Assembly: GCF_000328685.1 (NCBI RefSeq)
Contig: NC_019974.1
Location: 425,001-489,000, forward strand
Source of the DNA: Natronococcus occultus SP4
GTDB taxonomy: Archaea > Halobacteriota > Halobacteria > Halobacteriales > Natrialbaceae
DNA length: 64,000 nucleotides
Direction of reading: 5' to 3'
Part shown: one piece after another, positions 60,947 through 63,843 of the stretch
Numbering within the stretch: position 1 is the first letter of the stretch
Layout of the letters: the number at the start of each line of letters is the position of its first letter
Program-made: the position numbers and the translations under genes
The notes under the pieces: model-generated
Seen by the model: only the letters and a program-made list of their open reading frames with translations
Database searches by the model: none
What the model was told of the DNA's origin: nothing

Positions 60947-61195
60947 TTACTCCGCGAACAGCTCGTCGACGGCCTCACGCGCGGCGAGGGCCGCATCGTC
61001 GGCGACCTGCTCGGGGTCGGCGTCGTCCTCGGGAGCGTTCAGATAGACGTCAACTTCGAGGACGCCGTCCTCGAAGCTGACCGTGACGTCACAGTCGCGG
61101 ACGTCGGACTGTTTGTACCGGGAGAAGATCAGCCCCTCCGCCGCGTCGGAGGCGGTCTGGACGATCTCCTCGTCGGTCGGCTCCTCGCTTGGCAT
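60947..61195 (-). CDS. DUF3194 family protein
   Basis: An 82-residue acidic protein, MPSEEPTDEEIVQTASDAAEGLIFSRYKQSDVRDCDVTVSFEDGVLEVDVYLN. The family DUF3194 is found next to prefoldin beta in archaea, and here it begins right at the stop of pfdB (61196), so the two are coupled. Its role is unknown but translation or protein folding is likely from context. Confidence 0.85.
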   Translation of the reverse strand: MPSEEPTDEEIVQTASDAAEGLIFSRYKQSDVRDCDVTVSFEDGVLEVDVYLNAPEDDADPEQVADDAALAAREAVDELFAE

Positions 61196-61600
61196 CTACG
61201 CGCCGCCGGCACCGGGGCCGCCCGGACCGGCCGGACCGCCGCCCATACCGCCGCCAGCGCCGCCGAGCATCTCCTCGAGCTCGTCCTGAAGCTCCTCGAA
61301 CTGCTCCTGGACGCGCTCTTCCTGTTTCTCGAGGGTCTCGAGTCGGATCTCGAGGGAGTCGACCTTCTCCTCGAGGTCGTCCTCGGCCGTGTCGTAGTCG
61401 GTCTCGACGAACAGCTCGCCGACGTTGCGGTACATCGTCGTCTCCTCGTCGATGTTGTCGAGCTCGTCGAGGGCGCTCTCGGCTTCCTCGAGGTTCGTCT
61501 CGGCCTGCTGTTTCTGGACGGCGACTTCCTGGGCGGTCTCCTGAAGGCCCTGGAGCTGTTCGATTTTCTCCTGTGCTTCCGGCGGCAGGTTTCCTTGCAT
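61196..61600 (-). CDS. pfdB: Prefoldin subunit beta
   Basis: A 134-residue chaperone subunit. It is a two-helix coiled coil: [113 protein letters not shown] Gly-rich tail ([16 protein letters not shown]) follows. Prefoldin holds non-native proteins for the thermosome. ATG 61600 is chosen, as the upstream reading (to 61717) is Arg-rich. It is normally linked with pcc1-rpoP-rpl37ae, which lie 1.8 kb away here. Confidence 0.94.
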
Positions 61601-61755
61601 GTCTCGACCGTCGCCCTCCGGACTGATAAACCCCATCTTTGTTTCCCGTCGGAGCCGACTCCGCCGGATCGCGGGCACAGCCCTCCCGGCGATCCGTGAC
61701 TGTGGCTGAAGCTGCAACCTCGACGCCTATCCGTTCTGCACCCCTCCCTCCGGTA

Positions 61756-62874
61756 ATGCGACGCCGCGACGTCCTCGCAGCCGGCGGGCTCTCGCTGTCG
61801 CTCGCGGGCTGTCTCGACGTCCTCGAGCGCGAGGACGCCTGGCGCGAGCTCGTCGTCGATCCGCCCGGCGGCGTCTACGTCCCGCCGAAAGTCGACGAGA
61901 TGCTCCCGCTGGGCGACGCGACCGTCGACGGCCTTGCAGTCTCGCTGGCGGCGACGCGGCCCCACTCGTTCTGGACGGTCGCGGGCGAGGAGCGGACGCG
62001 CGCGGACGTCCGGGAGCACCACGACGTTCACCTGATGGCGACGGTTGCCGACGCCGAGACCGGGCTCCCCGTTCCGACGTCGGTCGAGACGACGGTCCGA
62101 GGCCCCGAGGAGCGAATCGACGGGCGCGCCCTGTGGCCGATGCTCTCCCAGCGGATGGGGTTTCACTACGGCGACAACGTTCCGCTGGGCGGGGACGGCC
62201 CCCGTACCGTGACGGTCAAGATCGACCCGGCGGACGTCGAGGCGACCGGTGGACTCGCCGATCGACTCGAAACCGCCCGGACCGTCGACGTCGAGTTCGA
62301 GTACGCGGCCGAGGAGATCGAGTCGCTCGAGCGGCGACTGATCGACGAGGACGAGGGGCGAGGCGAGGCCGGGGCGGTCGAGCCGATGGCCCACGACCAC
62401 GGATCGGAGAGCGGCCACGACCACGAGTCGGGGAACGGCCACGGCCAACACGAGAACCACGACGACCACGGAGACGCTCGAGAACCGATCCTCGAGGACG
62501 CCGTCGACGCGTGGCTCGGCACCGCCCGCAGCGGGGATCTCGAGTTCGGCATCGGCCTCGACGACTCGGACGGCGACGAGATCGCCGTGGTCGTGAGCGT
62601 GCACACTCGGCACAACGAGTTCCCGGTTCCGTTCGCGGGACTGTCGGTCGCCCCGGTTCGGGACGGGTCGCCCGGGGAGACGACGGCGCTCACGGAGCGA
62701 CTCGACGCCGAACTGGGTCACCACTACGGCGCCGTCCTCGAGCGCGAGCGGCTCGAGGCGACGGCGGAGCTGGCAGTGGTCCTCGACGCGACGCCACAGC
62801 TCTCACGTCACGAGGGGTACGAGACGGCGTTTTTCGACCGCGAACCCGCGACGCTGGCGATCGACCTCGAGTAG
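61756..62874 (+). CDS. P19/Tp34-like metal-binding lipoprotein with His-rich insert
   Basis: A 372-residue secreted lipoprotein. The signal MRRRDVLAAGGLSLSLAGC has a Tat-like RRR start and lipobox LAGC with Cys19. A P19/Tp34 (Fe2+ transport) type domain includes HDVHLMATVADAETGLPVPTSVETTVRGPEERIDGRALWPMLSQRMGFHYGDNVPLGGDGPRTVTVKIDP. A His/Asp/Gly insert at about 213-238 (HDHGSESGHDHESGNGHG) can bind several metal ions. A second similar domain follows (RHNEFPVPFAGLSVAPVRDG). It faces out of the cell and likely binds iron or copper. Confidence 0.8.
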   Translation: MRRRDVLAAGGLSLSLAGCLDVLEREDAWRELVVDPPGGVYVPPKVDEMLPLGDATVDGLAVSLAATRPHSFWTVAGEERTRADVREHHDVHLMATVADAETGLPVPTSVETTVRGPEERIDGRALWPMLSQRMGFHYGDNVPLGGDGPRTVTVKIDPADVEATGGLADRLETARTVDVEFEYAAEEIESLERRLIDEDEGRGEAGAVEPMAHDHGSESGHDHESGNGHGQHENHDDHGDAREPILEDAVDAWLGTARSGDLEFGIGLDDSDGDEIAVVVSVHTRHNEFPVPFAGLSVAPVRDGSPGETTALTERLDAELGHHYGAVLERERLEATAELAVVLDATPQLSRHEGYETAFFDREPATLAIDLE

Positions 62875-62897
62875 CGAGCCGAGCAAAGCGCGCTCTC

Positions 62898-63383
62898 TCA
62901 GTCGCTCCGGGCCGTGTGGCCGTCGGCGAACCGGAGCACGAGGAGTCCGACGGCGAGCATGAGCACGCTCACCGCGAGCCAGTGGGGGTTCCAGGCTTCC
63001 GTGCCGTGGACGACGTTGTGAAGATCGAGGACGTAGTGGCTGACGACGCCGTCGAAGACGTTGAACGCGCCCGCGCCGACGACGATCGCACCGACGAGGT
63101 ACGTCGTCGAGAGCCGGACGTCGGTGCCGTTGACGAGCCGCCAGGTGAGGCCGAGCCCGACGCCCATAACCCCGAGCATGGCAAACAGGAACAGCCCGTC
63201 GAACATGACGTTCGTGCGCATCCCGTCGAGGCTGTACGGATCGTAGATTCCCGACAGCAGGTGGTGAGTCTGCAGGGTGAGATGGAAGATCACGACGTCG
63301 ATAACCGCACCGAACCCGAACCCGGTCGTTCCGCCCGCGAGCAGGACGCGCCGCGAGCTCGCGGCTCCGGAAGCAGTCGTCAT
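62898..63383 (-). CDS. DUF2243 membrane protein
   Basis: A 161-residue protein with about four helices and many histidines: GFGFGAVIDVVIFHLTLQTHHLLSGIYDP, then FDGLFLFAMLGVMGVGLGLTW and GAIVVGAGAFNVFDGVVSHYVLDLHNVVHG. These HH and H-x-H patterns are typical of DUF2243. The gene is convergent with the lipoprotein, with 23 bases between stops. In membrane His-rich families, metal or heme binding is a common idea, but it is not shown for this one. Confidence 0.85.
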   Translation of the reverse strand: MTTASGAASSRRVLLAGGTTGFGFGAVIDVVIFHLTLQTHHLLSGIYDPYSLDGMRTNVMFDGLFLFAMLGVMGVGLGLTWRLVNGTDVRLSTTYLVGAIVVGAGAFNVFDGVVSHYVLDLHNVVHGTEAWNPHWLAVSVLMLAVGLLVLRFADGHTARSD

Positions 63384-63429: not shown

Positions 63430-63702
63430 CTACGTCCCTGACGACGCGTGCGCCCGGTCGCCGACGTCAGCGACCCGCTCGGCGACCTCGATCAGCGAGA
63501 ACCAGGTGTTCAGCGCCGCGCGGAGCGCAACGGGATCCGCGGCCTCGATCTCGATACGGACGAGGGCGTCCTCGCGATCGATCGTCGTCGCCGAGCGCTC
63601 GTCGTCGATCTCGCCGATCTCGCGGGCGACCGATTCGGCGACGATGCGGGCCCGAGCCGGCTCGTCGTACTCGAACTCGAGGGTCGCGCCGTGGGCGGAC
63701 AC
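63430..63702 (-). CDS. pcc1: KEOPS complex subunit Pcc1
   Basis: A 90-residue KEOPS subunit, starting GTG. The opening HGATLEFEYDEPARARIVAESVAREIGEIDDERSATTIDREDALVRIEIEAADPVALRAALNTWFSLIEVAERV matches Pcc1. KEOPS makes the t6A37 modification of tRNA with Kae1, Bud32 and Cgi121. It begins 6 bases after the rpoP stop, in the conserved archaeal order rpl37ae-rpoP-pcc1. Confidence 0.92.
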   Translation of the reverse strand: MSAHGATLEFEYDEPARARIVAESVAREIGEIDDERSATTIDREDALVRIEIEAADPVALRAALNTWFSLIEVAERVADVGDRAHASSGT

Positions 63703-63708
63703 GGTGCG

Positions 63709-63843
63709 CTATCGGACGTCGACTTCCTTGACGTCGCGGCTGCGTTCCTTCAGGAGGACGCGGTGACCGCAGTAGGGACACCGTACGCCGCCGTACTCGT
63801 CGAGCTGGACGTCGCGTTTACAGCGGGAACACTTGTAGCTCAT
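63709..63843 (-). CDS. rpoP: DNA-directed RNA polymerase subunit P (Rpo12)
   Basis: A 44-residue zinc-binding RNA polymerase subunit: it opens [20 protein letters not shown] and has CxxC at C5/C8 and C22/C25 ([12 protein letters not shown]). Rpb12/RpoP stabilises the assembly platform with D, L, N and other subunits. It starts ATG 63843, 20 bases after the L37Ae stop. It is followed by pcc1. Confidence 0.95.

Follow-up and report, generated by a model that had tools for sequence, protein, structure and literature searches.

A P19-fold lipoprotein and a DUF2243 membrane protein form a conserved convergent gene pair, possibly for Cu(I) handling, between pcc1 and pfdB in Natronococcus occultus

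The window analyzed here is a stretch of 64,000 nucleotides from contig NC_019974.1 of Natronococcus occultus SP4 (positions 425,001 to 489,000), a 4.31 Mb Natrialbaceae genome whose closest named relatives at the locus are Natronococcus, with eight further genomes counted in the same genus. Between pcc1 and pfdB, it carries one gene for a lipoprotein and one for a DUF2243 membrane protein (Table 1). The two genes are convergent with stop codons 23 nt apart, and pcc1 and the DUF2243 gene are co-directional with a spacing of 46 nt. Pfam searches assigned the membrane protein to DUF2243 (PF10002; 128.5 bits versus a cut-off of 25) and the lipoprotein to DUF7350 (PF24041; 120.4 bits versus a cut-off of 27). 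As Natrialbaceae orthologues of both, with 46-73% identity, are found in identical order at 20 named loci, we regard the two as real genes. The coordinates and Pfam matches confirmed the gene positions, strands, and identities given by an earlier sequence-only reading of this DNA.

Table 1. Features of the pcc1-pfdB locus, with positions numbered along the window.
Feature	Position	Strand	Basis
DUF3194 gene	60947..61195	-	Pfam DUF3194, 26.7 bits
pfdB (prefoldin beta), bordering the slot	61196..61600	-	Pfam Prefoldin_2, 96.7 bits
TTTATC box, candidate own promoter of pfdB-DUF3194	61625..61630	-	25-30 nt upstream of pfdB ATG
DUF7350/P19-like lipoprotein gene, 372 aa	61756..62874	+	Pfam, orthologues
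Lipoprotein signal peptide, RRR motif and lipobox (AGC; Cys19)	61756..61812	+	sequence
P19-fold N domain of the lipoprotein (aa 45-195), with candidate Cu site H92, M94, M129, M134, H137	61888..62340	+	model, alignments
Lipoprotein His-rich linker, aa 211-241, low confidence, His content not conserved	62386..62478	+	model, alignment
DUF7350 domain of the lipoprotein (aa 248-372), probably a degenerate second P19-like domain	62497..62871	+	Pfam, profile comparison
DUF2243 membrane protein of 161 aa with four predicted TM helices; His34/40/41/116/122/126 conserved	62898..63383	-	Pfam, model, alignment
pcc1 (KEOPS subunit), bordering the slot on the other side	63430..63702	-	Pfam Pcc1, 68.3 bits
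rpoP	63709..63843	-	gene position

The excerpted text of PMC10450193 describes a frequent association of euryarchaeal rpl37ae-rpoP operons with pcc1 and pfdB, and the sequence-only reading considered an insertion into this essential operon unusual. Among 30 genomes sampled from the same family, pcc1 and pfdB were no more than 400 nt apart and without DUF2243 in nine, flanked a DUF2243 gene in 13 (one of them broken), were separated by a gap of more than 400 nt of another kind in four, and were distant or on separate contigs in four. Slots without DUF2243 contained an MFS transporter (G128), a membrane-like protein without a family (G106), or a cadmium-resistance-type transporter (G174), while that of G094 contained no called gene. 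A TTTATC block was present 25-30 nt before the pfdB ATG in 34 of 38 start regions, whether or not an insert was present, at a spacing that we take to be consistent with a leaderless haloarchaeal promoter; the remaining four (L041, L043, L070, and L073) had T-rich variants, and the set of 38 counts two genomes twice (L041/L073 and L042/L066). As this block is conserved with or without the insert, the cassette appears to sit at the border of a transcription unit. Disruption of an essential operon is rejected in view of pfdB's own TATA-like box, and with other genes filling the slot in relatives, the insertion is not unusual. Comparison of the locus across haloarchaea, which the same reading had proposed, showed that the gene order is common to many Natrialbaceae genera and hence not a one-off, but that it is not universal. 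The cassette can also be lost, since in G071 only the start of the lipoprotein gene is left in the slot, 91% identical over 47 residues to a Natrialba one, and DUF2243 is gone. The other side of pfdB-DUF3194 is variable too, as in many relatives a LUD/LutB-like gene pair (clusters c22 and c18, named from reading the sequences rather than from a family search) lies upstream of DUF3194 in the orientation of the locus, adjoining HflX or DUF3194 (L066, L070-L073, L075-L079, and L102).

The slot DUF2243 genes are of two kinds. Those of Natrinema-type genomes and G036 encode proteins only 35-42% identical to that of the window and have no accompanying lipoprotein. In the DUF2243 tree (63 rows), these genes, six in number, form a separate deep subfamily (100/100), and 21 slot genes with a lipoprotein form one clade (99/97). 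Because the slot genes split in this way, it is likely that one slot was occupied twice by distant members of the family. A single slot DUF2243 that later acquired the lipoprotein is contradicted by the position of the Natrinema-type genes in another deep subfamily. The members of this second subfamily lie in the slots of L046, L047, L048, L056, L057, and L058, and a further one is broken in G159 (L045).

To define the linkage of the two genes, we searched named relatives (80 loci) and the genomes of the family. The order DUF3194-pfdB-lipoprotein-DUF2243-pcc1-rpoP was found in all 20 close-clade loci other than L069. Among 125 Natrialbaceae genomes, 38 encode a DUF2243 protein at least 65% identical to that of the window, and in 33 of these an intact lipoprotein gene lies tail-to-tail beside it (31 by coordinates, G231 and G232 by inspection). 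In four, the neighbouring lipoprotein gene is broken or shortened: G201 has a frameshift in the linker, G256 and G284 retain remnants only, and the G257 product (L193:2947-3489) has no P19 domain, its lipobox being followed by the DUF7350 domain, and still adjoins DUF2243. G212 has both genes, unlinked and 50 kb apart. The sites in G256 and G257 adjoin cobO- and cobQ-type genes (by family search for G257 only), and that in G201 adjoins a DUF309 gene. In Halalkalicoccaceae, the same tail-to-tail pair was found in six of the seven genomes examined at a different locus, in several of them next to an eIF-1A gene and a UspA-like gene; in the seventh (G089; L167:5772-7139), the gene convergent with DUF2243 codes for another kind of secreted lipoprotein, one whose C-terminus is Cys-rich. 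In all, four chromosomal sites carry the pair or its traces, and at two of these the lipoprotein is intact. Both gene trees group the pair members together, and in the lipoprotein tree (101 rows, leaving out four short or over-long calls, four duplicates, and loci skipped as repeats) the slot genes, the Halalkalicoccaceae genes, and L069 form one clade (100/99). The proposal that the two genes belong together is supported by the intact pairs of the DUF2243 subtype and by the recurrence of the pair at an unrelated locus in a second family.

The conserved convergent order shows linkage rather than interaction, and the two may be neighbours by common descent only, as independent membrane-associated genes with unrelated tasks. 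Convergent genes are not co-transcribed, and one genome, G212, has the two unlinked. DUF2243 has outlived the lipoprotein in three genomes (G256, G257, and G284) and is undamaged in G201 despite the frameshift of its neighbour, which suggests that it may act without the lipoprotein. At the loci examined, DUF2243 genes outside the pair clade have no DUF7350 neighbour; no metal-related neighbour recurs near them either, with no family appearing more than three times in a Pfam tally of 96 neighbours. Set against this are the retention of the convergent pair at an unrelated locus in Halalkalicoccaceae and its traces at the cobO/cobQ and DUF309 loci within Natrialbaceae, and we consider descent alone to be unlikely. 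The DUF7350 family was present in 165 of 195 genomes sampled, in 72 of 74 with DUF2243 versus 93 of 121 without (Fisher p 5.9e-5), a comparison that ignores kinship and genome completeness and is not used as evidence here. Haloferax volcanii, which served as a control, was positive for DUF7350.

To better assess the lipoprotein, we examined its fold. The lipobox cysteine Cys19 is kept in 75 of 89 aligned rows, 13 being gapped and one having Arg. Its AlphaFold2 model (pLDDT 83.7) consists of two beta domains with a low-confidence linker between them. In a Foldseek search with this model, residues 46-190 matched the P19 family, whose structures made up all of the first 23 rows (E 4.4e-7 to 3.0e-5). 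VIA-align returned FetP 3nrp with a Z of 14.2 and an rmsd of 2.2 over 133 residues, and rows 1-22 (Z 13.0-14.2) were all P19-family proteins or a designed cage that aligns like one (4nwn), with the next row at 10.1. A profile of 89 relatives matched FtrA 8vv5 with an E of 1.5e-8. The Pfam family Iron_transport (P19, PF10634) scored 19.8 bits on the window lipoprotein, just under the cut-off of 21, and 25.7 bits on a DUF7350 paralogue from the same genome, which passes. These computations show that the N-terminal domain has the P19/FetP/FtrA fold, and the earlier description of a P19-like lipoprotein stands on the profile match to FtrA together with the structural matches to FetP and its family.

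H92, M94, M129, M134, and H137 are each present in 89 of 89 aligned relatives; this alignment (A1) covers 89 of the 101 tree rows, and of the 12 left over, eight belong to alignment A3, in which the site residues are invariant (69/69). In the alignment to FtrA 8vv5, M94 takes the position of the HLEAD glutamate, and M134 that of the aspartate in the DGPHYG motif. According to the excerpted part of PMC9174327, an acidic patch of Glu3, Glu44, Asp46, and Asp92 in P19 holds Mn as an iron analogue. The columns aligned to Glu44, Asp46, and Asp92 contain Met, mostly Thr/Ser, and Met, so that the acidic iron patch is not retained. The PDB titles among the fold matches include copper-bound E44Q, D92H, and M88I variants, indicating that E44, D92, and M88 of P19 have been studied as metal-site residues. 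His132, the fourth copper ligand of C. jejuni P19, has no counterpart in the FtrA 8vv5 alignment, which weighs against the copper reading. In PCuAC, the Cu(I) site is formed by two Met and two His, as given in the excerpts of PMC6696091. Because the P19 acidic residues are replaced by invariant Met, and given this Met/His precedent, we infer that H92, M94, M129, M134, and H137 form a candidate 3-Met/2-His site for Cu(I).

The Pfam name Iron_transport suggests a different function, in which the lipoprotein would be an iron-uptake P19 protein, as in FetMP, FtrABCD, or EfeUOB, and DUF2243 its permease or helper. The fold and sequence relation to FtrA and FetP would fit this role, as would the DUF7405 gene, with a Dyp-peroxidase C-terminal match, found beside the DUF7350 lipoprotein in 25 of 101 tree rows. 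Among these is the paralogue in the same genome (L040:7205-9858), a DUF7350 lipoprotein with 16 linker His that adjoins a DUF7405 Dyp-peroxidase-like lipoprotein and a cohesin-domain protein; by analogy, its DUF7405 neighbour may recall iron systems (EfeB) as much as copper. Against iron uptake, the acidic iron-patch residues are replaced by Met in all 89 relatives, and FTR1, the iron permease partner of P19, had no match over the cut-off in 59 haloarchaeal genomes sampled, including this one. We judge this function to be unlikely.

Outside the pair clade, one clade of DUF7350 lipoproteins adjoins SCO1-, TlpA-, and CcdA-like genes, the last named from a sub-threshold match (20.1 bits versus a cut-off of 27.1), and a SCO1-like gene lies within three genes of the lipoprotein in 26 of 101 tree rows, a neighbourhood that speaks for copper. 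The genome studied here has only the one paralogue, beside DUF7405, and, elsewhere, one SCO1 gene. SCO proteins of Haloferax mediterranei are treated as copper chaperones for the oxidase in the excerpted text of PMC9240420.

The remainder of the lipoprotein comprises the linker and the DUF7350 domain. Linker His number 0 to 11 across the 26 pair-clade sequences aligned, with at least three in 13 of these 26 rows versus 13 of 63 others. This variability rules out the His-rich linker as a conserved metal site; the "His-Asp-Gly metal loop" of the sequence-only reading is a variable linker. A profile comparison of the N- and C-terminal domains gave a probability of 96% and an E of 4.4e-9 with their HYG motifs aligned, while in control comparisons with the N domain 14 unrelated families reached at most 4.1%, the reversed C domain reached 10.0%, and none of ten column shuffles exceeded 0.6%. 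The C domain has not retained the three methionines of the site, and its own invariant residues are D261, T284, P347, H352, G354, Y355, and E356, and structure comparison of this domain returned common Ig-like folds with Z near 6 and no P19 relation. Judged by its profile, DUF7350 is probably a second, degenerate P19-like domain that lost the site.

For DUF2243, the model contains four predicted membrane helices (pLDDT 79); a fold search with it found nothing credible (best E 0.92), and a PDB sequence search with alignment A2 gave no match up to E 1. D62, H116, and H122 are conserved in 62 of 62 sequences, H34 and H40 in 61 (one gap), and H41 in 59. Positive charge is concentrated at the N-terminus and in the second loop, with hardly any in the His-bearing loops 1 and 3: the inner segments contain 2.0 and 2.3 Lys plus Arg per sequence, and the outer loops, with two His each, 0.05 and 0.00. 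Since the positive charges lie in the other segments, the His loops are expected on the outer side, to which the lipoprotein is anchored, and the invariant histidines are predicted to lie where helices 1 and 3 end on that side.

Bacterial plasmids also encode DUF2243. A tblastn search matched 169 records, and among the 30 matches listed we obtained 12 regions, one without annotation. In four of the 11 annotated regions, from Sphingobium, Rhodococcus, Deinococcus, and Staphylococcus (four phyla), a cytochrome c oxidase assembly gene follows directly downstream, which we count in favour of copper; in the other seven it does not. Three of the bacterial plasmid copies (L182, L184, and L191) have sulfur-related genes in their vicinity (YeeE/YedE, MBL-fold hydrolase, TauE/SafE, and BigR/Blh). 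As caa3 CtaG had no match over the cut-off in the 59 haloarchaeal genomes sampled, we reject it as a partner of haloarchaeal DUF2243. The bacterial neighbours named cytochrome c oxidase assembly protein, together with the invariant His at the DUF2243 helix ends, could also point to haem handling, with DUF2243 binding haem through its membrane histidines. No haem gene was seen to recur near the pair, and a P19 fold with a Met/His site is not known to bind haem, which makes this role very improbable. The sequence-only reading had left the choice between metal and haem open; because the Met/His site is invariant, metal is favoured and haem less so.

Taken together, the pair can be read as a two-gene extracytoplasmic module for Cu(I) handling, a cassette that has settled at a tolerated site where two transcription units meet; we give this reading as a whole an even chance, with the metal and the direction of transfer inferred. 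The linkage of the two genes, kept in relatives and at more than one chromosomal location, makes joint copper handling probable. In such a module, the N domain of the tethered lipoprotein, its P19 iron patch lost, would bind Cu(I) via the five site residues, and the His-rich linker, where present, may gather metal. The DUF7350 domain would serve docking rather than metal binding. Copper would then be exchanged, in either direction, between the lipoprotein and the outer His cluster of DUF2243 at the outer face of the membrane, and may be destined for copper enzymes, such as a haem-copper oxidase, or for copper balance. More tentatively, and with some doubt, the P19 iron fold may have been converted in haloarchaea into a duplicated lipoprotein specific for Cu(I), the DUF7350 family, acting as an extracytoplasmic copper chaperone. 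In Natrialbaceae and Halalkalicoccaceae, this chaperone would cooperate with DUF2243, a receptor or conduit for copper in the membrane, and the two would replace bacterial PCuAC/CtaG-type factors.

A literature search by family name or identifier found no paper naming DUF2243 or DUF7350 (the matches to PF10002/COG4329 were nearly all Plasmodium by title, and probably gene identifiers), and a role of the pair is therefore apparently not in print among the papers searched. The component families are known; what is new is their combination, a duplicated P19 lipoprotein with Met substitutions that is paired with DUF2243. Two uncharacterized families gain a joint, testable role by this proposal and, if it is true, a protein type labelled "Fe2+ transport" is a copper protein in haloarchaea, whose respiratory copper enzymes must be loaded outside the cytoplasm and in whose 59-genome sample neither FTR1 nor caa3 CtaG was found. 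The locus further illustrates that additional genes can enter a conserved archaeal gene cluster harmlessly where one transcription unit meets the next.

Compared with P19, FetP, FtrA, and Tp34 (PF10634), the lipoprotein is likewise extracytoplasmic, has the same fold over residues 46-190 (Z about 13-14), and shares the H-L-x and P-M...G-x-H-Y-G motifs. It differs from them in its tandem DUF7350 domain, in the Met residues that replace the iron-patch Glu and Asp, in an N-domain score just under the Pfam cut-off, and in that no FTR1 partner was found in the genome. In CopC-CopD copper uptake, an extracytoplasmic copper-binding beta protein acts with a membrane partner; the likeness to our pair lies in this general arrangement and not in any sequence relation shown. 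The DUF2243 protein belongs, by Pfam and tblastn, to the same family (PF10002) as the bacterial proteins preceding a CtaG-type gene, but its neighbour here is the DUF7350 lipoprotein, and caa3 CtaG had no match over the cut-off in the 59 haloarchaea sampled. PCuAC/ECuC copper chaperones, which act with Sco, have a different motif and, in the excerpts of PMC6696091, a cupredoxin-like fold. The lipoprotein, with its putative copper role, resembles these chaperones in its predicted Met/His copper site, its extracytoplasmic location, and the SCO1- and TlpA-like genes that adjoin its relatives.
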